Positions 475 to 15,136 of a stretch of 38,909 bases of DNA are shown piece after piece. The stretch is taken from assembly GCA_017541275.1 (NCBI GenBank), contig JAFXZM010000037.1, positions 1 to 38,909 on the forward strand, read 5' to 3'. The stretch is from Oscillospiraceae bacterium. Its GTDB lineage: Bacteria > Bacillota > Clostridia > Oscillospirales > Ruminococcaceae. The notes beneath the pieces were generated by a model. The model was not told the DNA's origin. It did not search any database and worked only from the letters and a program-made list of their open reading frames with translations. Position numbers and translations under genes: made by a program. The stretch's first letter is position 1. Every line of letters begins with the position of its first letter.

Positions 475-2832
475 TCAGACCTCAGTGATATGCCAGCACT
501 CTGCGGCATACTGTTTGATTGTACGATCGGAGCTGAATGGCCCCGCTGCACAGGCATTGCGCCATTGCTTCGCTGAAAATGCAGCAGAATCTGCATAATC
601 GTTCAGCGCCCGCAGCTTGGTCTCCACGTAAGAAGGGAGATCCAGCAGCAGATAATAGTGGTCGGGCTGATGCCAGCTTGCGCCGTCAAGCAAGGAAAAA
701 TACAGCTCACGGAATTCACCGGTGCCGTTATCCGATACCGTTCCGTCAATCAGCGTTTTGACAACTCGTGCAATCTGCGGATTTTTCGACATGACCGAAC
801 GGCTGCAATAATCCTCCAGATGCTCAATTTCTTCGACATTTGCGCCGAAAATATAATTGTTCTCTGCGCCGGCAGCGTCAACAATTTCAATATTTGCACC
901 GTCCAGTGTTCCGAGCGTAACAGCGCCGTTCAGCATCATTTTCATATTTCCGGTTCCGGAGGCTTCGGTGCCCGCAGTTGAAATCTGCTCGGAAATATCA
1001 CAGGCAGCGACCAGCTTCTCTGCATAAGATACATTGTAATTCGTGACAAAATGCACCTTCAGCAGACCCTTGACCGCAGGATCACTGTCAATCAGCTTTG
1101 CGATCTCGTTGATATATTTGATGATTGCTTTGGCGCGGCGGTATCCCGGTGCGGATTTGGCTCCGAACAGGAACGTGGTCGGCCGGAAATTCCGGATGCT
1201 GCCGTCCTTGATGCCAAAGTAAATCCACAGAATCGAAAACGCATTCAGAAGCTGTCGCTTGTATTCGTGCAAGCGCTTGATCTGGATATCAAAGCAGGTT
1301 TCCGGGTCAATTTTAACGCCCTCAGTCCGCAGAATATAATCTGCGAGCTGCTTCTTCTTTGTCTGCTTGATTGCATGGAACCGCTCCATGACTTCAGGTT
1401 CATCCGCATATCGGGCGAGCGCCTTGAGTTCATCCAGCGCCGTCAGGAAGTGCTCTGAGCCGCTTAATTCAGCAAACAGTGCGGTCAGTTCCGGGTTGCA
1501 GACACCGAGCCAGCGGCGCTGTGTGATGCCGTTTGTTTTATTCTGGAATTTTTCCGGCGCATATGCGTACCAATCCTTCAGGACGGTCGTTTTCAGCAGC
1601 TCTGTGTGAATCTCTGCTACGCCGTTGACATACCGGCCGGCATACATTGCAAGGTTTGCCATGTGAACCTGACCGTTTTTGATGATGCGCATGACTTTGA
1701 TCTGCTCAGGCGGAAGCTCCTTTGCATAAAGCTCCTCCAGCAGCTCCTCAGAGATTTGCAGCATGATCGCATAGATCTCCGGCAGCAGCTCCTCGATCAG
1801 ATCACAGTCCCACTTTTCAAGCGCTTCCTGCATGATCGTATGGTTCGTGTACGAGAACACCTGTTTCGCGGTGTTGAGCGCATCGCGGAAGGAATAGCCC
1901 TCAGATGTCAGCAGACGGATCAGTTCCGGAATTGAAATGACCGGATGCGTGTCGTTGAGCTGCACTGCGAGATGCTCCGCGAGGGAATCCAGCGTGCCGA
2001 ACTGCGCCTTGTGCTTTTTCAGACAGTCTGCCAGCGAGGCGGCACAGAAGAAATACTGCTGCTTCAGGCGGAGCGCCTTGCCTGCACGGGTATCATCATT
2101 CGGATAGAGGCAGCGGGAGATATCCTCTGCCGCGACTGTTTCCGCAGAGGCTTTCAGGTAATCCTGTTCGTTGAATGTTTTGAAGTCGAACGCATTGACC
2201 GGCTCTGCCTGCCAGAGACGCAATGTGCCGATATGCGGTTCTTTGCCGGCCTCTGCATAGCCGATGATCGGCATGTCATACGGCACGGCACGCACGGTCT
2301 GCCCGTTGTATTTGACATTGACTGCATCCTGCTCGCAGCGGATGCTCCACGGATCGCCAAAGCGCTGCCAGTCGTCGCCGGTTTCGGTCTGGCGGCCGTT
2401 CTCGAAGCCCTGCTTGAACAGGCCGTAGCGGTAGCGGATGCCGTAGCCGTCAACAGGAAGGGAACAGGTCGCGGCGCTGTCAAGGAAGCATGCCGCAAGA
2501 CGTCCGAGACCGCCGTTTCCCAGCGCGGCATCCTCGATCTCCTCAAAGACGGAAAGCGATGTTCCGGCATCGGCAAATGCCTGCTCCATGTCGCTCAGAA
2601 GACGGAGACAGTAGAGGTTATTATATACCGCTCTGCCCATCAGGAATTCCATAGAGAAATAACAGACGCGCCGGCCTGCAAGATGCGACTTGCGGCAGGC
2701 ATTCCAGCGCGGCATAATCTCCCGGCAGACCGCCTCGCTGACCGCATTGTGCAGCGCATATGCGTCTGCTTCTGCGGCCGGTTTGCCGAGCGTCTGCTCT
2801 GCCTGTTTCAAAATGGTTTCGGCTTGATTCAT
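475..2832 (-). CDS. glgP: Glycogen/maltodextrin phosphorylase
   Basis: A PLP-dependent alpha-glucan phosphorylase (GT35), expected to release glucose-1-phosphate from glycogen or maltodextrins in the cytoplasm. The 785-aa length is normal for bacterial members. The PLP-lysine signature is clear: GTEASGTGNMKMMLNG, with the Schiff-base lysine at about residue 631; the upstream KRLHEYKRQ block (about 519) is also conserved. The start is ATG with GGAGGA 6 nt upstream. It is monocistronic: a near-consensus promoter at 2874-2902 precedes it, two hairpins follow it, and no other glycogen genes are nearby. The promoter lies inside a repeat family that also precedes the giant surface gene. Whether it prefers glycogen or maltodextrin cannot be read from the sequence. 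Confidence 0.95.
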   Translation of the reverse strand: MNQAETILKQAEQTLGKPAAEADAYALHNAVSEAVCREIMPRWNACRKSHLAGRRVCYFSMEFLMGRAVYNNLYCLRLLSDMEQAFADAGTSLSVFEEIEDAALGNGGLGRLAACFLDSAATCSLPVDGYGIRYRYGLFKQGFENGRQTETGDDWQRFGDPWSIRCEQDAVNVKYNGQTVRAVPYDMPIIGYAEAGKEPHIGTLRLWQAEPVNAFDFKTFNEQDYLKASAETVAAEDISRCLYPNDDTRAGKALRLKQQYFFCAASLADCLKKHKAQFGTLDSLAEHLAVQLNDTHPVISIPELIRLLTSEGYSFRDALNTAKQVFSYTNHTIMQEALEKWDCDLIEELLPEIYAIMLQISEELLEELYAKELPPEQIKVMRIIKNGQVHMANLAMYAGRYVNGVAEIHTELLKTTVLKDWYAYAPEKFQNKTNGITQRRWLGVCNPELTALFAELSGSEHFLTALDELKALARYADEPEVMERFHAIKQTKKKQLADYILRTEGVKIDPETCFDIQIKRLHEYKRQLLNAFSILWIYFGIKDGSIRNFRPTTFLFGAKSAPGYRRAKAIIKYINEIAKLIDSDPAVKGLLKVHFVTNYNVSYAEKLVAACDISEQISTAGTEASGTGNMKMMLNGAVTLGTLDGANIEIVDAAGAENNYIFGANVEEIEHLEDYCSRSVMSKNPQIARVVKTLIDGTVSDNGTGEFRELYFSLLDGASWHQPDHYYLLLDLPSYVETKLRALNDYADSAAFSAKQWRNACAAGPFSSDRTIKQYAAECWHITEV

Positions 2833-2873: not shown

Positions 2874-2902
2874 ATTATACCATATAATGCGGAAAAGTTC
2901 AA
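2874..2902 (-). promoter_or_regulatory. SigA promoter of glgP, within repeat A
   Basis: On the minus strand: TTGAAC, 17-nt spacer ending in TGG (extended -10), TATAAT. The transcript leader would be about 35 nt. The -35, the TTTTCCG spacer start and the -10 match the promoter-like elements at 14916-14944 and 15012-15040. Confidence 0.8.
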
Positions 2903-2973
2903 TGGGAGCAGTAGAATAAAATCAACAGTTTTTGCATCATGAGAGCAAAACCGGAACCGGGCACTGCCCGGTT
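2875..2973 (-). repeat. Repeat A, diverged copy upstream of glgP
   Basis: About 97 nt that align along their whole length to the two 96-nt tandem units at 14917-15108 (shared blocks CGGAAAAGT.CAAT, AGAATAAAA, GAGCAAAACCGGA). The distal end is a hairpin: AACCGGGC-ACT-GCCCGGTT at 2955-2973. Relative to the other copies two stem base pairs are exchanged in a compensatory way. The proximal end supplies the glgP promoter. Confidence 0.75.
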
Positions 2974-3064
2974 CAGTCTGTTAAAAAAGGTATCGCTGTG
3001 CGATGATCCGGAATGGAGACAACGTCCCCAAACCCTGCTGGGGACCTTGTCCCCAGACCCCAGT
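2971..3064 (+). repeat. Repeat B, first copy
   Basis: A segment starting GTTCAGTCTG and ending in CCCCAGAC that recurs in inverted orientation at 30063-30151 with roughly 87% identity by eye. It contains several GTCCCC/GGGGAC inverted repeats and the block GCGATGATCCGGAATGG. It follows the repeat A hairpin directly. The short ORF through it is not convincingly coding. Confidence 0.75.
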
Positions 3065-3112
3065 ATGAAATACAAAGAACGTATCAGCATATTTTTTGCA
3101 TATATTGGGATT

Positions 3113-3266: not shown

Positions 3267-3342
3267 CTGGGTGTGGCGCAGTTGGTAGCGCGCTACCTTG
3301 GGGTGGTAGAGGCCGCCCGTTCAAGTCGGGTCACTCAGACCA
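3267..3342 (+). tRNA. tRNA-Pro (GGG anticodon)
   Basis: Acceptor CTGGGTG pairs with CACTCAG (one G-U). The D-arm GGCGCAGTTGGTAGCGC, the anticodon stem CTACC/GGTAG with loop TTGGGGT (anticodon GGG) and the T-arm with GTTCAAGTC are all present. The CCA end is encoded (3340-3342), unlike the tRNA at 321. It is a single-gene transcript between its own promoter and terminator. Confidence 0.95.
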
Positions 3343-8835: not shown

Positions 8836-11800
8836 TTATGCAGCATTTTTTCTTTTTCGCTTCCGGTAACAGACAGTACCGACCGCTGCAAGGGGAATCG
8901 TGATGCAGACAAATGCCTGCTTCACCGTGGAGGAAATGCCGGTTGCGACTTCGCCGTTCAGCGTGTTAGTAACATGCAGTGTGACCGGCCCTGTAAATGT
9001 GAATGCGAACGGAGTATCCGTATGCTGCCGCGGGTCATTCTCTCCGAGCTGAAAAACGGTTTCATATTGTCCGTGTGCCTCAGATATTCTAACCTGAATA
9101 TTCTCCGGCAGCACGATCTCCGCTCTGTCATCATGCTTCAGGGTAAAGGTGCCGCCGCTCCGCGGAATCGGTGTCTGCTTGTCGCCGTTCTTTGCCCAGT
9201 CAAAGCCGCTGCCTGTGCCCGCATTCGGGAAGCTGATTGTGAACGTGAAATCCTCTGCACGGTTGCCGAGCGCACCCTCAACCGTTTTTTCGACAGTCAG
9301 GTATTTCAGGGACGGATCAATCTTCGTATTCGGAACACTCAGCGTATAGACATAAGCATCCTCGGTTTGTTCAAGCGTTCCGTTGTAGGAATCACTGATG
9401 AGCCGCGGCACACCGAGCGGCGAAATGCTGAAGATAATGTCATCTTTCAGTGGGGTGTAATTAAACGGTGCCTGTTTTTCGGTCAGGAAGAACACACTGT
9501 CGGTGTCAGCGAGCTTGATCGTGCGGCCGCTGTTTCCGCCGCAGATATCGACCGAGCCATTTTTCGTGACCATATCCTCAAAGCCTGTCATCGGCGCCTT
9601 GCATTTGACATAGCCCATGATTGAGGTCATTTCCTGCTTATACAGGGCAAAATGCGCGCCGCTGAGCTGTTCATCCGGGTCATCAGCGTCCAATTTTGCG
9701 ATTCTGAATGTAAAGGGCTTATTGTACACATCAATAAAGCCGATGACGCCGTCTGCGCCGGGCTTGCTGTTTGCCCAATGCGAATCATTTATGTCCGCGG
9801 TACCCCACGCATTGCCGTTCTCATAAAGCAGCGAGATTGTATCGTCCTCGTTAATAACGAATTTCACTGTCTTTTGCAGTCCGACATAGCCTCTTGGGGC
9901 GAGGGTCTGCGTCAGGGTATAGGGCTGGCCTCTCTCGAAGCTGTACATCATGGTAATGAGGCCCTCTGTGTTAGAGGAATAGGTTCCGACGGTATTTCCG
10001 CTGCTGTCCTTCAGCGTAAACACACCCCCTGCGAGGGGCTGCTCGCTGTCCCACTTGAACAGTCTCAGCACAACGCCGCCGATGCGGGTATTGCTGATTG
10101 TATCTTCTCTTGCGGTGCTGCTGAGCGTCTGGCTGTCATACGATGCAACATATTCAAAATCGTGATCGTTTGGTTCGCCCGGCGGTGTTGCCTCATTTGT
10201 TCTTGTTGCAGTCAGCCAGAAGCTGTCGCCGTTGTCGAGCGGTGTGACCGTGCCGTAATTCGTAACTATGCCGTCTGCTGAAACGGTCGGGGAGGGCTCG
10301 CTGATTTTGACTTCTCTTACGGTATAGCCCTCGAAGCCGGTGCGCTTGCTGCCGTCGGCGTTGGGCTTCAGGGCAGTCCAGAAATAATGTGCTGTGGTTG
10401 CAGGCGCTTTGATCTGTCTGACAGAATCCGGGAGCAGCTCGCCGTCCGCGTAGACCGCCGTATAGATCGGCGCATGTGAGGTTGTCAGCGAGAGATCGCT
10501 CCACTGCTTTTTGACAGACAGGCTGTAGCCTTTTTTGTTGTGAATCTCAAGCTGCGGATTGACGTCCGCTCTGACTCTGCCCACATTGAGCTCATTTCCG
10601 TCGTACTCATAATATGACGGAATCATCTGGACGGAATAATCCTCCATCACCTTTTCGCCCATGACGCGCTCATAGCCTGCAAGGCCGTAGCCGGGCTTTG
10701 CGCTTTCCGTCACCCTGAATACCGAATTTACGGGCAGACCGGGTACAACGATCGTATAGCCGGACGGAATGGCAGAGATCGCGCCGAAGCCGGATGTGGA
10801 GAATGTCACGTTTTCGGCTGTGATGCCGTTGATCGGGGCTTCCTTCAGCGAATTCATGAGTGCGCGGCTGTAGGTCAGACCGGTCTCCTGGAAGGATTCG
10901 CTGTCAGGGTCGAATCTGCAAAGCTGCTTATTCGGAGACAGCACATGGTATTGATGCATATTGGCCGGTTCCATTTTGTCTGCGCTGATACTGACTGACG
11001 AGAGATACAGTCTGAAATCGAAGGTTGCCGGGTCATTTTTGATTTCGCGATTTTTCTCATCGAGCAGCTTTTTTGTGATAAAGAGGTCCTTGATGACGTC
11101 ATCGTTCACATGGTTGTCAAAGGAAATGGTCGGCATGATCTCGGCTGACTGTTCTTCTGATGCATAGCTGGTGAGGTCGCCGATTACCTTTATTCTTCCA
11201 TCTTCATCTGGAACCGGCTCGCCGTTGATCGTGACACTGTCGTAAACGGAGGAGTCAACTGCGCATTCAACGATCTTGTAGCGGATTGTACTTTCAGGGA
11301 ACAGGATCACAGCGTTTCTGGTCGGGTTGATAAAGTAGATATTCTGGTAGGCCTCATCCTCGGTGAATCCGGGCGGCCTGTATCTTCTGACAAATGTCGG
11401 AGACTGATTGGAGTTCTGATACTGCACGCGGATGAGCTGATTGCTGTTTTCGAGAAGACGCCACTCGCCCTCCTCACCGTTCTCGCCATCCGGAAGGGTA
11501 TAATAGATCTGGAACGGATATTCGAGGAAATCCAAATCCAGCAAGTCTGCGCCGCTGCCGCTCACGCTTTTGGAGACAACGACCTGACCGGGCGTTACAG
11601 CGGTGATGTTGAAGCGCATATGCAGGTTGGAAGCGCCTGCGCCGCGCTCCATGTAGAACACTTTCATGGTATGCTGCGAATAATCCTTGAACATCGGCTC
11701 AAAATTACCGCTGCCATCCTTGTCAAAATAATCCGAAAGGTATTTGTCCAGCGCATCCTGTGTCCAGTTGGTGTGCTCCTCCTTGTAATTCTCGGTAAAG

Positions 11801-14787
11801 ATTTCGAGCAGGGTCGAATGCTCCAGCGTGCCGTGCGAAGTCGCTTTGTTCTTATCGAAGTAGACATCACCTGTCCGGAAATTGATTTTTCCCTCCATGG
11901 CCTTATGTGTACCGCCGAGGTCGAGCACGAGCTGACCGTCAACGTACAGCCAGAAATCGTCGTCACCGGTAAATTCAAAGATAATGTCATGTCCCCATGA
12001 ATCCAGGCCGGAGGGCGTCTGAACAAAGTCCGCCTCCATTTCCATGCCGAAATAGAAATCCGCAAATTTCTCCTCATCTGTCTGGATCAGGTGCAGCCTT
12101 TCATATTTTCTCGGGTCGTCCTCAGAAAGCGGCCTTTCCAGTGCATCGTACAGATTGAGCGGGAGTTGGGAGGAATAGATATCCGGTGCTATGGTGTCAT
12201 AGGGGAAAAACTGTCCGTGCTTTCGGGTGGTTGCGATTCTTTGTTCGTGCGTTCCCAGCTCACGGTATACAATAAAATCGGTTTCGCCGGTCGCGGCGTT
12301 CGTGTTGAATGAGGTGGTGCCGTCCGGGTTGGTCTTTTTGAGTGTGGCAAAGTTCTGGCAGCTATCGAATTCAAAGTATCCGCTGGCATCGTACTCACGC
12401 TCAAGGAACAGATGATTGACGGGGATTGCATTTGCGTATGCGGTCTGAAGATTTGCACCTGTTATCGTTTTGGGATAGCCGTATTCATTCAGAGAATTGC
12501 TGACCAGGCCGTGAACCAATTTGTCTATGGACTGACTTCCTCCGAAATACGGCATGGTAATCTCGCTGGAAGATGAATCTCCGTATGTCGAATTCGGCAC
12601 ATTATCCCAGTTCACCATTTTCATTTTGATGCCGTACAGATTGTTGTCAACGGTCGGGACAGAATACAGTCTGTCATTCAGATTCAGCGGCTCGCGGGTT
12701 GCGAAATAGATCGGGAAGGCAGCGCTCTCCGTGCAGGGGACGAGTCTTTTTTTGTCTGCACTCGGCTTCAGGCCGACATAGGAATAATATTTGTTATCCC
12801 ATGCAATAATCGGTGAATAGAATTCGCCGTTTCGTCTGCCGGGCATGTTGACGCCGATGGGATCCTCCGAAAGCAACTGATTTCCGTTGAGCTGCGGCGC
12901 GAGATATTTCTCGGAATAGGGATTGTACAGCTCATAGTAATAGTTCGGTTCCTTGGTGACCTCGTCATAATATTCCGTAAACGTCCATTCCAGCGAGCTG
13001 GTGCCGTCGCCCAGCCACAGAATCTTGCCGCCGCTTGTGTAGCAGGGGTAGAGCTGGCCGTTGAAGTCTAAGGCGTAGATATCATATTGCAGGGTTGATT
13101 CATTCCAGATACGGGTATACATGATGACCGACTGGCCGTTCCTGATATCGGAAACGCTGACGCGGTCGGCAGAAAAGGTGAGCAGATCATCGTCGCTGAG
13201 GTCTGCAAAATTCAGAAGATTGAGCCATGTATTTGCATTGTTGTCCGATGACAGATTAAAATACGTGACCGCATTTTCTCCGTCATCCTCCATATGAAAG
13301 GTGAGGTAACTTCCGTTATAGGAGAGCTGAATTGCTCCGTTGCTGTCCGGATTGACCGTAAACGGAGTAGCCGCAGCTTCAGAATCGGTCAGAATCAGGC
13401 TGCTGCCGTCAACTGCGAGATATCTGGTTCCGCTGCCGGTTTCGGCGGAAAGCGTGTAGGTTTGGTCTGTGCCCGTGCCGTGGAACGTCCAGCGCGTGAT
13501 TTCACTGCCCTCATCCACAAACAGCATCGTGCCTTCTTCTGTTTCGGAGTGCTGCCGGGTTACAATTTCGACCAGCGAATGGACACCGCCGTCCTCGCCG
13601 TTCTCGCCCTCAGCCATGAGCGCATAGCCGTGCGTGCCGCCGGTGTAGTTCATCAGGCCATAGGTGCAGTTGTTCAAAAAGATATTCACTGCAATGTTTT
13701 CAGTCAGTGAAAACCAGACCTGCCCATCATCATCATTGGCCTTGAATCCGGCGATCGGTTGTTCAGAGGTCGGGTTGCCGCTATTATTGGTGGTCTTTCT
13801 GTTCCAATAGTACTTGTCTCCGTTGATTGCAGCATAGAGCCGGAACTGATTGGAACTGGGGTGCTTTTCCAGCGTGAATACTGTTCTGTTGGCTTCTTTA
13901 GCTGCAAATCGCAGGCCGGTTCTGGCAGGGCTGCCGAAATCTCCGGTGTACATTTCTATGTAGTTTCTGGTGCCGTCAGCGTTCTTGAAATAGACATAAA
14001 ACTGATTGCCCACGCCTGCATGCTCAAAGAACAGATTTGCGGAATTGGTGCTGACACCCTTTACGGTGGATTTGATACCTGTCCGGGTTTCGCTATGGGT
14101 GCCGCTGTCGTTATTGACATCTATGATCTCATTATAGATATAATAAGGACCGCCTCTGCTCGGATTGTTGGTATTTGCGTTGGCGAGCTTGCTGGCAACA
14201 TAGCTGACATGAATGCCGTCGCCGTCTTCGCCGTGCTCGGCAAGATAGGAGATGATATCGTTTCTGACGATCTCATACACACTGAAGGCTTCGGCATAAA
14301 AGCTGATTTTGCCCTCCTCAGCGGTGAATTGGTAGATTCTCTCGCGCTCCCCGTCATCGCGGATATGCCAGAGCTCCAGCAAGCCGTCCGGGGGAATTGC
14401 AGGGTTGGTGATTTCAACGAGAATCGGGTTTTCCCAGCCCGGCTGGTATTCGGTTTCGCCGTTGGTGATCGTGATGTCGTATGCAGCAATGCCGTTATGC
14501 TCCTCTGAAACATCGACTGCCTCGGCAGTTGCACCCTCCGGCATCAGGCCGTCCAGCGTAATGACCTGCTCGGCCTCCTCGCCGTTCGGGTAGAGCTCAA
14601 TGCTCTGCTGACAGAGCGGAACGGCCGCTTCCGGAGTTTCCGGTTCTGCGGGTTCGGCGGCAGCGGACGAATCTGCGGCGGCCTCCGCGGCAGCGCGCAG
14701 CGGCAGTGAGATACTGTTTACAGAGGAGAACAGCACAGCGGCTGCGCAGACAGCGCAGATCAGGCGTTCTGTGAATTTTATTTTCAT
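8836..14787 (-). CDS. Giant cell-surface protein: fibro-slime/PA14-like and SpaA/Cna-B domains
   Basis: About 1983 aa, predicted exported and surface-anchored. Positions are counted from the ATG at 14799. A signal peptide (about 1-38) precedes an Ala/Glu/Pro-rich stretch. A long region with little recognisable homology (about 60-890) follows. Next comes a fibro-slime/PA14-like beta domain (about 905-1070; GDDDFWLYVDGQLVLDLGG). Several Cna-B-like modules lie at about 1075-1545, with SpaA-type pilin repeats at about 1573-1665 and 1692-1830 and a C-terminal beta domain (1833-1945). The end is VATGIS, a 20-aa membrane helix and an RKRKRK tail, resembling a sortase sorting signal without canonical LPXTG. 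ATG 14787 is preferred over 14799: GAGG is well spaced before it, whereas the earlier ATG abuts AGAGG. Likely an adhesin or pilin-like protein. Transcription comes from a repeat array of promoters. Confidence 0.88.
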   Translation of the reverse strand: MKIKFTERLICAVCAAAVLFSSVNSISLPLRAAAEAAADSSAAAEPAEPETPEAAVPLCQQSIELYPNGEEAEQVITLDGLMPEGATAEAVDVSEEHNGIAAYDITITNGETEYQPGWENPILVEITNPAIPPDGLLELWHIRDDGERERIYQFTAEEGKISFYAEAFSVYEIVRNDIISYLAEHGEDGDGIHVSYVASKLANANTNNPSRGGPYYIYNEIIDVNNDSGTHSETRTGIKSTVKGVSTNSANLFFEHAGVGNQFYVYFKNADGTRNYIEMYTGDFGSPARTGLRFAAKEANRTVFTLEKHPSSNQFRLYAAINGDKYYWNRKTTNNSGNPTSEQPIAGFKANDDDGQVWFSLTENIAVNIFLNNCTYGLMNYTGGTHGYALMAEGENGEDGGVHSLVEIVTRQHSETEEGTMLFVDEGSEITRWTFHGTGTDQTYTLSAETGSGTRYLAVDGSSLILTDSEAAATPFTVNPDSNGAIQLSYNGSYLTFHMEDDGENAVTYFNLSSDNNANTWLNLLNFADLSDDDLLTFSADRVSVSDIRNGQSVIMYTRIWNESTLQYDIYALDFNGQLYPCYTSGGKILWLGDGTSSLEWTFTEYYDEVTKEPNYYYELYNPYSEKYLAPQLNGNQLLSEDPIGVNMPGRRNGEFYSPIIAWDNKYYSYVGLKPSADKKRLVPCTESAAFPIYFATREPLNLNDRLYSVPTVDNNLYGIKMKMVNWDNVPNSTYGDSSSSEITMPYFGGSQSIDKLVHGLVSNSLNEYGYPKTITGANLQTAYANAIPVNHLFLEREYDASGYFEFDSCQNFATLKKTNPDGTTSFNTNAATGETDFIVYRELGTHEQRIATTRKHGQFFPYDTIAPDIYSSQLPLNLYDALERPLSEDDPRKYERLHLIQTDEEKFADFYFGMEMEADFVQTPSGLDSWGHDIIFEFTGDDDFWLYVDGQLVLDLGGTHKAMEGKINFRTGDVYFDKNKATSHGTLEHSTLLEIFTENYKEEHTNWTQDALDKYLSDYFDKDGSGNFEPMFKDYSQHTMKVFYMERGAGASNLHMRFNITAVTPGQVVVSKSVSGSGADLLDLDFLEYPFQIYYTLPDGENGEEGEWRLLENSNQLIRVQYQNSNQSPTFVRRYRPPGFTEDEAYQNIYFINPTRNAVILFPESTIRYKIVECAVDSSVYDSVTINGEPVPDEDGRIKVIGDLTSYASEEQSAEIMPTISFDNHVNDDVIKDLFITKKLLDEKNREIKNDPATFDFRLYLSSVSISADKMEPANMHQYHVLSPNKQLCRFDPDSESFQETGLTYSRALMNSLKEAPINGITAENVTFSTSGFGAISAIPSGYTIVVPGLPVNSVFRVTESAKPGYGLAGYERVMGEKVMEDYSVQMIPSYYEYDGNELNVGRVRADVNPQLEIHNKKGYSLSVKKQWSDLSLTTSHAPIYTAVYADGELLPDSVRQIKAPATTAHYFWTALKPNADGSKRTGFEGYTVREVKISEPSPTVSADGIVTNYGTVTPLDNGDSFWLTATRTNEATPPGEPNDHDFEYVASYDSQTLSSTAREDTISNTRIGGVVLRLFKWDSEQPLAGGVFTLKDSSGNTVGTYSSNTEGLITMMYSFERGQPYTLTQTLAPRGYVGLQKTVKFVINEDDTISLLYENGNAWGTADINDSHWANSKPGADGVIGFIDVYNKPFTFRIAKLDADDPDEQLSGAHFALYKQEMTSIMGYVKCKAPMTGFEDMVTKNGSVDICGGNSGRTIKLADTDSVFFLTEKQAPFNYTPLKDDIIFSISPLGVPRLISDSYNGTLEQTEDAYVYTLSVPNTKIDPSLKYLTVEKTVEGALGNRAEDFTFTISFPNAGTGSGFDWAKNGDKQTPIPRSGGTFTLKHDDRAEIVLPENIQVRISEAHGQYETVFQLGENDPRQHTDTPFAFTFTGPVTLHVTNTLNGEVATGISSTVKQAFVCITIPLAAVGTVCYRKRKRKNAA

Positions 14788-14848
14788 GATTATCCTCATC
14801 CTCTCCGGTTTCCCATATGAAAAGAAATGAAATCAGAATCATTTTCCG

Positions 14849-14867
14849 CGGCAGAGCCTCTGCCGCC
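14849..14867 (-). other. Hairpin in the 5' leader of the surface-protein gene
   Basis: GCGGCAGA-GCC-TCTGCCGC forms a perfect 8-bp stem with a 3-nt loop about 60 nt upstream of the start codon and well 5' of the ribosome site. The same 8-bp stem sequence recurs in the cdsA leader (37172-37202). Confidence 0.55.
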
Positions 14868-14915
14868 TGCTTTCAAAATTTGAACATGTGTTTCATGATA
14901 AAGCTATTCTATTAT

Positions 14916-14944
14916 ATTATAGCATATTATTCGGAAAAGTGCAA
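14916..14944 (-). promoter_or_regulatory. Proximal promoter of the surface-protein gene (repeat unit 1)
   Basis: Minus strand: TTGCAC, 17-nt spacer ending in ATGC (TGC extended -10), TATAAT. The leader would be about 120 nt. It is the best match of the three tandem promoter-like elements. Confidence 0.78.
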
Positions 14945-15012
14945 TAGGTGCAGAAGAATAAAAATGCCGGTTACGCTTCATGGGAGTAAAACCGGAGGCC
15001 GGCACTGCCGGC
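14917..15012 (-). repeat. Repeat A tandem unit 1 (96 bp)
   Basis: A 96-nt unit from TTATAGCATATT to CACTGCCGGC, repeated head-to-tail at 15013-15108 with a single mismatch (T at 14987, C in unit 2). It contains the hairpin AGGCCGGC-ACT-GCCGGCTT (14996-15014, shared with the start of the next unit) and most of a promoter on the minus strand. A diverged copy lies before glgP. Confidence 0.93.
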
Positions 15013-15040
15013 TTATAGCATATTATTCGGAAAAGTGCAA
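15012..15040 (-). promoter_or_regulatory. Second promoter-like element (repeat unit 2)
   Basis: TTGCAC, 17 nt, TATAAG with TGC extension: identical to the proximal promoter except for the last -10 base, so expected to be weaker. Confidence 0.55.
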
Positions 15041-15108
15041 TAGGTGCAGAAGAATAAAAATGCCGGTTACGCTTCATGGGAGCAAAACCGGAGGCCGGCA
15101 CTGCCGGC
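15013..15108 (-). repeat. Repeat A tandem unit 2 (96 bp)
   Basis: Second head-to-tail copy, 95 of 96 bases identical to unit 1. It is followed by TTATAGTATATTA (15109-15121), the beginning of a third, truncated unit. Confidence 0.93.
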
Positions 15109-15136
15109 TTATAGTATATTACGGCGATTTTTTCAA
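15108..15136 (-). promoter_or_regulatory. Third promoter-like element (truncated repeat unit)
   Basis: TTGAAA, 17 nt, TATAAG on the minus strand, at the same 96-nt phase as the other two. The spacer differs from the repeat and it lacks the TG extension. The activity is uncertain. Confidence 0.4.

Follow-up and report, generated by a model that had tools for sequence, protein, structure and literature searches.

Organisation of the repeat locus

The window analysed here, 38,909 nt of contig JAFXZM010000037.1 from an Oscillospiraceae bacterium, carries on its minus strand a giant gene (8836..14799) whose 1987-aa product, read from the first ATG, contains SpaA-like and DUF7601 domains and is probably a surface adhesin. 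Upstream of it lies a tandem repeat with a 96-bp unit, in which we see a probable mobile promoter cassette directed at the -10 boxes of resident promoters. Tandem Repeats Finder places the repeat at 14917-15121, with a period of 96 and 2.1 copies. The proximal copy (unit 1, 14917..15012, minus strand) and the distal copy (unit 2, 15013..15108, minus strand) are identical at 95/96 bases and differ solely at 14987/15083, which confirms the two head-to-tail units with one mismatch described in an earlier, sequence-only reading of the locus. Unit 1 runs from a 15-nt palindrome with a 6-bp stem (GCCGGC-AGT-GCCGGC; 14998..15012, minus strand) to its own TATAA, and an identical palindrome forms the 5′ end of unit 2 (15094..15108, minus strand).

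Three pairs of promoter boxes are found on the minus, i.e. coding, strand, each with exactly 17 nt between the boxes, as that reading had also reported. The proximal pair (TTGCAC 14939-14944, TATAAT 14916-14921) constitutes the unit 1 promoter (14916..14944), whose spacer ends in ATATGC and which is predicted to be the active one; the stretch from its -10 box to the start codon (14800..14915) contains the 5′ leader. The middle pair (TTGCAC 15035-15040, TATAAG 15012-15017) is the unit 2 promoter (15012..15040), and the sixth base of its -10 box is the first base of unit 1. The distal pair (TTGAAA 15131-15136, TATAAG 15108-15113) had been taken for the start of a third unit. Judging from other loci, it would instead belong to the resident, original promoter (15109..15136), interrupted directly after its TATAA by the palindrome of unit 2; this assignment draws on the statistics of leftmost promoters and on empty-site analogues, both given below. 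The T at 14916 is accordingly read as the T left over from the resident -10 box. A generic sigma-70 scan of the window reported none of the three pairs, because TTGCAC matches TTGACA at only 3/6 positions (the cut-off being 4) and TATAAG lacks the required final T.

A dispersed family restricted to one genus

The 96-bp unit was searched for in the genome to which the window belongs (G000; 66 contigs, 2.04 Mb, 75.6% complete). Fifty-eight matches were found at E<=10 and 47 at E<=0.001; among the 11 with E > 0.001, two weak ones (C12, C34) fall in apparent coding sequence. Full or nearly full units precede the genes for asparagine synthase (asnB), a 68-aa 4Fe-4S protein (which we take to be korD-like), an EF-G-like factor, a CobW-type GTPase, a phosphoesterase, a response regulator, a DUF1292 protein and a carbohydrate phosphorylase. 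The last of these (475-2832, minus strand) lies in the window, and its unit (2875..2971, minus strand), recognised by similarity to the 96-bp unit, is a single copy of 97 bp with a CCGGGC stem and the left flank CTGAA. Upstream of metG in G000 the palindrome is decayed.

The unit was matched in 23/30 genomes of the genus, presumably Ruminococcus, and in 0/31 genomes outside it. The exact junction of TATAA with the palindrome occurs in 21/30 genus genomes, as against 0/393 other genomes drawn from the order, and was found at at least 107 loci of named records, which are Ruminococcus, Oscillospiraceae, Clostridiales or Clostridia metagenome-assembled genomes, several of them from ruminants. Carriage by phages or plasmids was considered and dropped: phage and plasmid records held no unit match, and IMG/VR no exact junction.

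The promoter core of the unit, CCATTGNANTTT-N11-TGNTATAAT, is present 34 times in G000 and at most 56 times (G025), the reversed-pattern control giving 0 in all 30 genus genomes. It is absent from G005, G012, G013, G014 and G015, the same five being without the junction. Core-type promoters that lack the palindrome precede other genes of G000, among them presumed look-alikes, judging from their first residues, of pyruvate kinase, cysteine synthase and cysteinyl-tRNA synthetase. Some palindrome-less promoters look like cassette descendants, as at C10:59831 and C21, which have AAAACTGTTGATTTTATTTTCCTGCTCCCATTGCAC, or a close variant of it, in common with full units.

Anatomy of the unit

The unit measures about 95 bp and consists of the 15-nt palindrome with its covarying stem, an unconserved middle, a T-tract and the promoter (CCCATTGCAC...ATATGnTATAA). 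Across 82 representatives, less than 80% alike and chosen for a perfect palindrome and TTG-17-TATAA, conservation is limited to roughly 30 nt at the start (palindrome, CTCC, CtCCCA) and 45 nt at the end (T-tract, ctcCCATTGca.TTT..., ATATGnTATAA). A fairer set was provided by 37 pairs of promoters standing 92-106 nt apart, fetched by unit similarity or by protein with no palindrome pattern. In 36/37 a perfect 6-bp stem directly follows the first TATAA, with six different stems represented, and unit length is 95-97 in 35/37. At the two most variable stem positions, pair 1-15 matches in 36/37 units (17.9 when shuffled) and pair 3-13 in 37/37 (21.1 when shuffled). One version of the stem dominates some genomes (11/11 pattern matches in G025, 12/12 in G022, 8/10 in G028), though G029, G004 and G000 are mixed. 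That the palindrome is an independent repeat was rejected, since of 42 pattern matches in G000 (reversed-pattern control, 5) 27 are perfect palindromes and 24 of these lie in units; the three perfect palindromes outside units and four imperfect ones were also inspected.

Folding of the unit middle in the 82 representatives showed no more structure than chance would give, with a mean z of -0.31 and 24% of the units below -1, and an Rfam search of the unit region returned no family at gathering score, the best sub-threshold match having E 0.086. Terminal inverted repeats are absent from the 82 representatives, where the best end-to-end inverted match averages 3.95/15 compared with 4.08 when the left ends are shuffled. 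A miniature inverted-repeat transposable element (MITE) of the DDE type was rejected for this lack of terminal inverted repeats.

A long form also occurs, with a multi-hairpin structure (GTTTC...GAAAC plus GCAGTTTGC...GCAAACATGC within the palindrome) in place of the 15-nt palindrome. It is seen in RGIG4308/G029 and G004, upstream of metG or the EF-G-like gene (L107 5213 +, L111 1893 +, L116 6850 -, L259 1314 -, L287), and is possibly a fuller or ancestral cassette end.

Units begin inside the -10 box

The pattern with which the at least 107 loci were fetched required ATGnTATAA and the palindrome and set no condition on the -35 box, so that the counts of junctions, spacings, orientations and resident promoters that follow, all among the loci listed, over-represent canonical junctions. 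Internal TATAA boxes are followed by C or G at 152/173 junctions (138 arrays). A last promoter was found for 104 of the 138 arrays, with spacers of 16-18 allowed; its -10 box is TATAAT in 97/104 and its spacer 17 nt in 100/104. The patterns behind both counts presuppose T..AA or TATAn at the junction. To the left of the arrays, 27 of the 114 leftmost junctions were set aside for having a palindrome further upstream. Of the remaining 87, 73 have TTG separated from TATAA by exactly 17 nt, other spacings scoring 0-3. Forty-seven of these resident promoters are cassette-like and 40 are not, and TTG is found at 17 nt in 28 of the latter 40. With TTG-17-TATAA left of most leftmost junctions, the cassette therefore lies within the -10 box of a promoter that was already resident.

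To score orientation, genes were called by a codon-usage gene finder whose training set came from the genus. Orientation could be assessed for 77 of 101 arrays, 21 lying near contig ends and three having no called gene. Seventy-three of the 77 are followed by a gene on the same strand, 71 of them within 250 nt, and four by a gene on the opposite strand; three arrays lie wholly inside a called gene. The median distance from an array to the start of the longest ORF is 34 nt.

Filled and empty sites at orthologous genes

The korD-like gene has a match in 27/30 genus genomes, and 27 of its 28 matches were examined. Units are present at two of these 27 loci (one junction in G000, two in G022); in G008 and G027 the promoter is of the core type but has no palindrome, and no units are seen at the other loci listed. 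In G000 the 96-bp insert lies between TATAA and TAGACAGG, and the flanks, once closed, match the empty promoters of G003 at 36/50 bases and of G015 at 35/50.

Upstream of asnB, units are found at 5/28 loci from 27 genomes, with two junctions each in G000, G001 and G026 and one in G029 and G022. The 30 nt left of the G029 unit, a native half-promoter, agree with empty relatives at 23-26/30 positions, the native promoters in G027, G023, G019 and G012 scoring 25-26/30. The asnB gene of G021, 92% identical to that of G000, has a core-type promoter with no palindrome there. The genome G001 holds two asnB copies (L203, L229), one with cassettes in its promoter and one whose promoter resembles that of G002; the bin could be mixed.

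Counted by eye, unit-like insertions occur in 5/21 relatives listed for metG (G000 decayed, G029 in the long form, G022, G025 and G016; 21 of 24 matches covered) and in 3/23 listed for the EF-G-like gene (G000, G029, and G004 in the long form; 23 of 28 covered). An isolated palindrome after GATAA at metG of G003, which may be a broken unit, is outside this count. Depending on the species, asnB, metG and the korD-like gene are thus preceded by 0, 1, 2 or more units; one genome per species was compared, and these are differences between species only.

The giant gene itself has a match in 15/30 genus genomes. Among ten upstream regions read, units stand directly upstream only at the window's locus, and in G022, which holds the closest relative at 53% identity, a single ordinary promoter is found at this position. 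A device specific to the giant gene was consequently rejected, as its relatives are without units at the loci read.

Spread between loci and growth of arrays

Among units at different loci, the 12 best pairs reach 92.7-99.0% identity, and their 60-nt flanks match at only 10-43/60 positions (16 and 16 for the best pair). Near-identical units in unlike surroundings indicate that cassettes have been copied to new places. Within G000, mean identity is 0.869 inside arrays (5 pairs) and 0.664 between them (346 pairs), means that draw on 27 rows, including three false ones (C35 minus 19093, C50 minus 41171, C62 plus 4379). Adjacent units in arrays are at least 95% identical in 16/30 pairs and below 75% in 10/30, among the loci listed; these identities, like those of the resident promoters given below, are ungapped, so indels lower them. 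The most similar neighbours suggest local duplication or homogenisation, and local duplication is the most likely origin of the two units in the window. However, 11/30 adjacent pairs carry different palindromes, hence arrays are not the product of local duplication only.

Insertion model and alternatives

We consider the 96-bp unit to be a non-coding mobile promoter cassette of Ruminococcus that targets the -10 box of resident promoters, with a probability of about 0.8. What points to this, in the sequences compared, is a dispersed family of fixed architecture, its junction at the -10 box, empty sites at orthologous genes, the covarying stem and the gene-facing orientation; from these we infer the loss of activity of upstream promoters, promoter takeover and movement. 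The cassette, hairpin palindrome first, would end in a complete promoter whose -10 box stops at TATAA, and would integrate between TATAA and T of a resident -10 box in the direction of transcription. The old -10 box would lose its T, becoming TATAAG or TATAAC and presumably weaker, and the TATAA of the cassette would gain it, so that the gene would pass to the TTGCAC/TATAAT promoter of the cassette. Since each inserted unit offers a new TATAA, further units could stack. With G in place of T at the end of both upstream -10 boxes, the giant gene is unlikely to have three equal phased promoters. The TATAA on both sides of a unit may have arisen as a 5-bp duplication, have come in as an end of the cassette or reflect shared homology.

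As to how the cassette moves, we think it most likely that the hairpin is recognised as single-stranded DNA by a putative enzyme acting in trans. A more specific version, in which the cassette as single-stranded DNA inserts between A and T of a TATAAT melted in the open complex of RNA polymerase and behaves as a selfish, promoter-seizing element, strikes us as distinctly doubtful. If true, tens of promoters, including those of essential genes, would have been taken over in much of a genus. The cassette model suggests a concrete route of promoter replacement in bacteria, by a compact element that enters the promoter's own -10 hexamer, and brings the origin of new promoters within reach of tests in a single genus, whose species have filled sites in some cases and empty ones in others at the same genes. 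The cassettes also offer ready natural promoter replacements for expression studies.

Besides the enrichment for canonical junctions already stated, which tells against this model, several observations fit it poorly. Upstream of the -10 box, resident and cassette promoters share a mean of 20/50 bases among the loci listed, where chance predicts 12.5. Eight units of G000 (C17, C27, C14, C64:55447, C62:2902, C40, C50 and C44) start after TGA, TGAA, TGAAA, TGAAT or ATCA instead of TATAA, for which a simple TATAA rule does not account; the resident promoter may, for example, have been deleted there. There is no target duplication besides TATAA, and in units with TGA-type left flanks TATAA does not stand on both sides. 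Promoter cores are common in some genomes where exact junctions are rare or absent (18 vs 0 in G008, 36 vs 1 in G018, 19 vs 1 in G020), and the core may thus predate the cassette. At asnB of G029 the piece left of the unit stops a base early, at TATA, and the closed flanks therefore match at best 27/50. At the giant gene the flanks match those of G022 at 27/50 bases only, so this site alone proves little. Neither are there terminal inverted repeats in the units, nor an enzyme that could be named: Y1_Tnp had no match in 17/19 genus genomes examined, including G000, where, at 75.6% completeness, a Y1 gene could sit in the missing part.

The main alternative for movement does without a mobile element: recombination or template switching through the shared TATGnTATAA would have spread promoter regions, the boundary of the unit being a homology edge. 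Both ends of the unit do coincide with the most conserved promoter segment, the Y1_Tnp search named no enzyme, and homogenised arrays and some likeness of resident to cassette promoters, among the loci listed, would follow. However, some native promoters share few bases with the cassette end (GTATA at asnB of G029), properly spaced -35 boxes occur in 28/40 resident promoters that are not cassette-like, and homology alone does not predict that a palindrome with a covarying stem begins exactly at the junction. We regard this explanation as unlikely. The sequence-only reading had proposed a promoter variable-number tandem repeat (VNTR), in which local tandem promoters would adjust how strongly the surface protein is expressed through changes in their copy number. 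Part of this survives: the repeat does bear promoter boxes, unit number at orthologous loci differs between species, the two units of the window are almost identical, and the 16/30 adjacent pairs at 95% identity or above are what local duplication would give. What finds no support is its role as a device of this protein. The unit is dispersed over the genome before unrelated genes and relatives of the giant gene have none at the loci read, which argues against a private switch; moreover, upstream -10 boxes end in G or C in place of T and, among the loci listed, 11/30 neighbours differ in their palindromes. A promoter VNTR is therefore improbable here, and such readings of repeats of this kind can overlook a dispersed family.

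Two further explanations start from the hairpin. A repetitive extragenic palindromic (REP/REPIN) element mobilised by a RAYT (Y1) transposase would account for a conserved, dispersed, GC-rich hairpin with a covarying stem and for the dominance of one stem in G025, G022 and G028, although not for the mixture in G029, G004 and G000. With no Y1_Tnp in G000 and a match in only 2/19 genus genomes, it is very improbable; nor do we know of REP elements that carry a promoter or are sited in -10 boxes. Alternatively, each unit could be a tandem attenuator or small-RNA cassette in which promoter, hairpin and terminator make short RNAs or attenuate transcription. The window-type CCGGTT...AACCGG followed by CATTTTTATT resembles a terminator, but the region between palindrome and promoter has little conserved sequence and, in 82 units (mean z -0.31), no structure beyond chance, a conserved hairpin with a U-run was not found, and no Rfam family was reached at gathering score. 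This we set aside as scarcely credible.

Relation to known systems

The term mobile promoters denotes promoter-bearing repeats multiplied before different genes of one genome, as put in two citing papers (PMC8049555, PMC9208149). Near-identical promoters before non-homologous genes and a gene-facing orientation are both found for the cassette, whose promoter function is predicted from consensus boxes with 17-nt spacing; the likeness lies in short promoter repeats before different genes in one genome. The cassette differs in having a defined structure of about 95 bp, with a covarying hairpin at one end and a promoter at the other, a -10 target, and arrays. Mobile promoters and promoter propagation were reportedly treated by Matus-Garcia, Nijveen and van Passel in 2012 and by van Passel in 2014, and to our knowledge no such target rule is described for them. 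We call the cassette an extension of the mobile-promoter idea by a defined -10 target. Titles and opening lines of abstracts, a literature that does not include the core mobile-promoter papers, gave no description of this element, and its absence from print is not claimed.

MITEs, which in Neisseria are known as Correia elements, have terminal inverted repeats. The direct repeats of Neisseria MITEs (TA, TAT, TATA, TATAG) resemble the -10 hexamer and favour fusion promoters, according to PMC9330008. The two are alike in being short, non-autonomous elements with promoter parts; in contrast, the cassette supplies both the -35 box and TATAA, the target contributing only the final T, and has no terminal inverted repeats. 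With REP/REPIN elements it shares a dispersed, GC-rich and mostly intergenic hairpin, here within one genus only, but it carries a promoter and faces genes, and no Y1 gene was found in G000. Elements of the IS200/IS605 type and their palindrome-associated relatives have a hairpin near the left end, insert 3′ of a short target and carry target-like sequence at the right end. The cassette has all three of these features; unlike them, it shows no right-end hairpin by eye, in addition to the lack of a Y1 gene in G000.

Further observations

Some units with TGA-type left flanks have a member of another repeat family (GGGGAC...GTCCCC, followed by GTCGGAGACACTTTTTCGACAGACTGA or a relative of it) immediately before their palindrome, at C64:55447, C62:2902 (about 2972-3070 of the window) and C40:27792 of G000. 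Divergent cassette-type promoters with one palindrome between them occur at L030 (G000 C44, 11999 minus and 12090 plus), where one of the two joins the palindrome directly and the usual middle is missing. A multicopy sequence, GGGCTAATAAAGATTTGGGTGGATTCTCGCAC..., interrupts a C14 unit and adjoins promoters near contig ends (L025 at the C14 end, L035 at the C59 end, and the start of L058); it looks like the end of an insertion sequence.

Upstream of metG in G018 and G019 (L264, L267) lies a terminator-like hairpin whose T-run (TTGCTTTTTTT) seems to double as the -35 box of metG; in G019 this hairpin is the cassette-type palindrome CCGGGCAGTGCCCGG. Elsewhere in the window, positions 1-395 hold the 3′ end of a 23S rRNA followed by a 5S rRNA and tRNA-Met, and a tRNA-Pro is located at 3267-3342.
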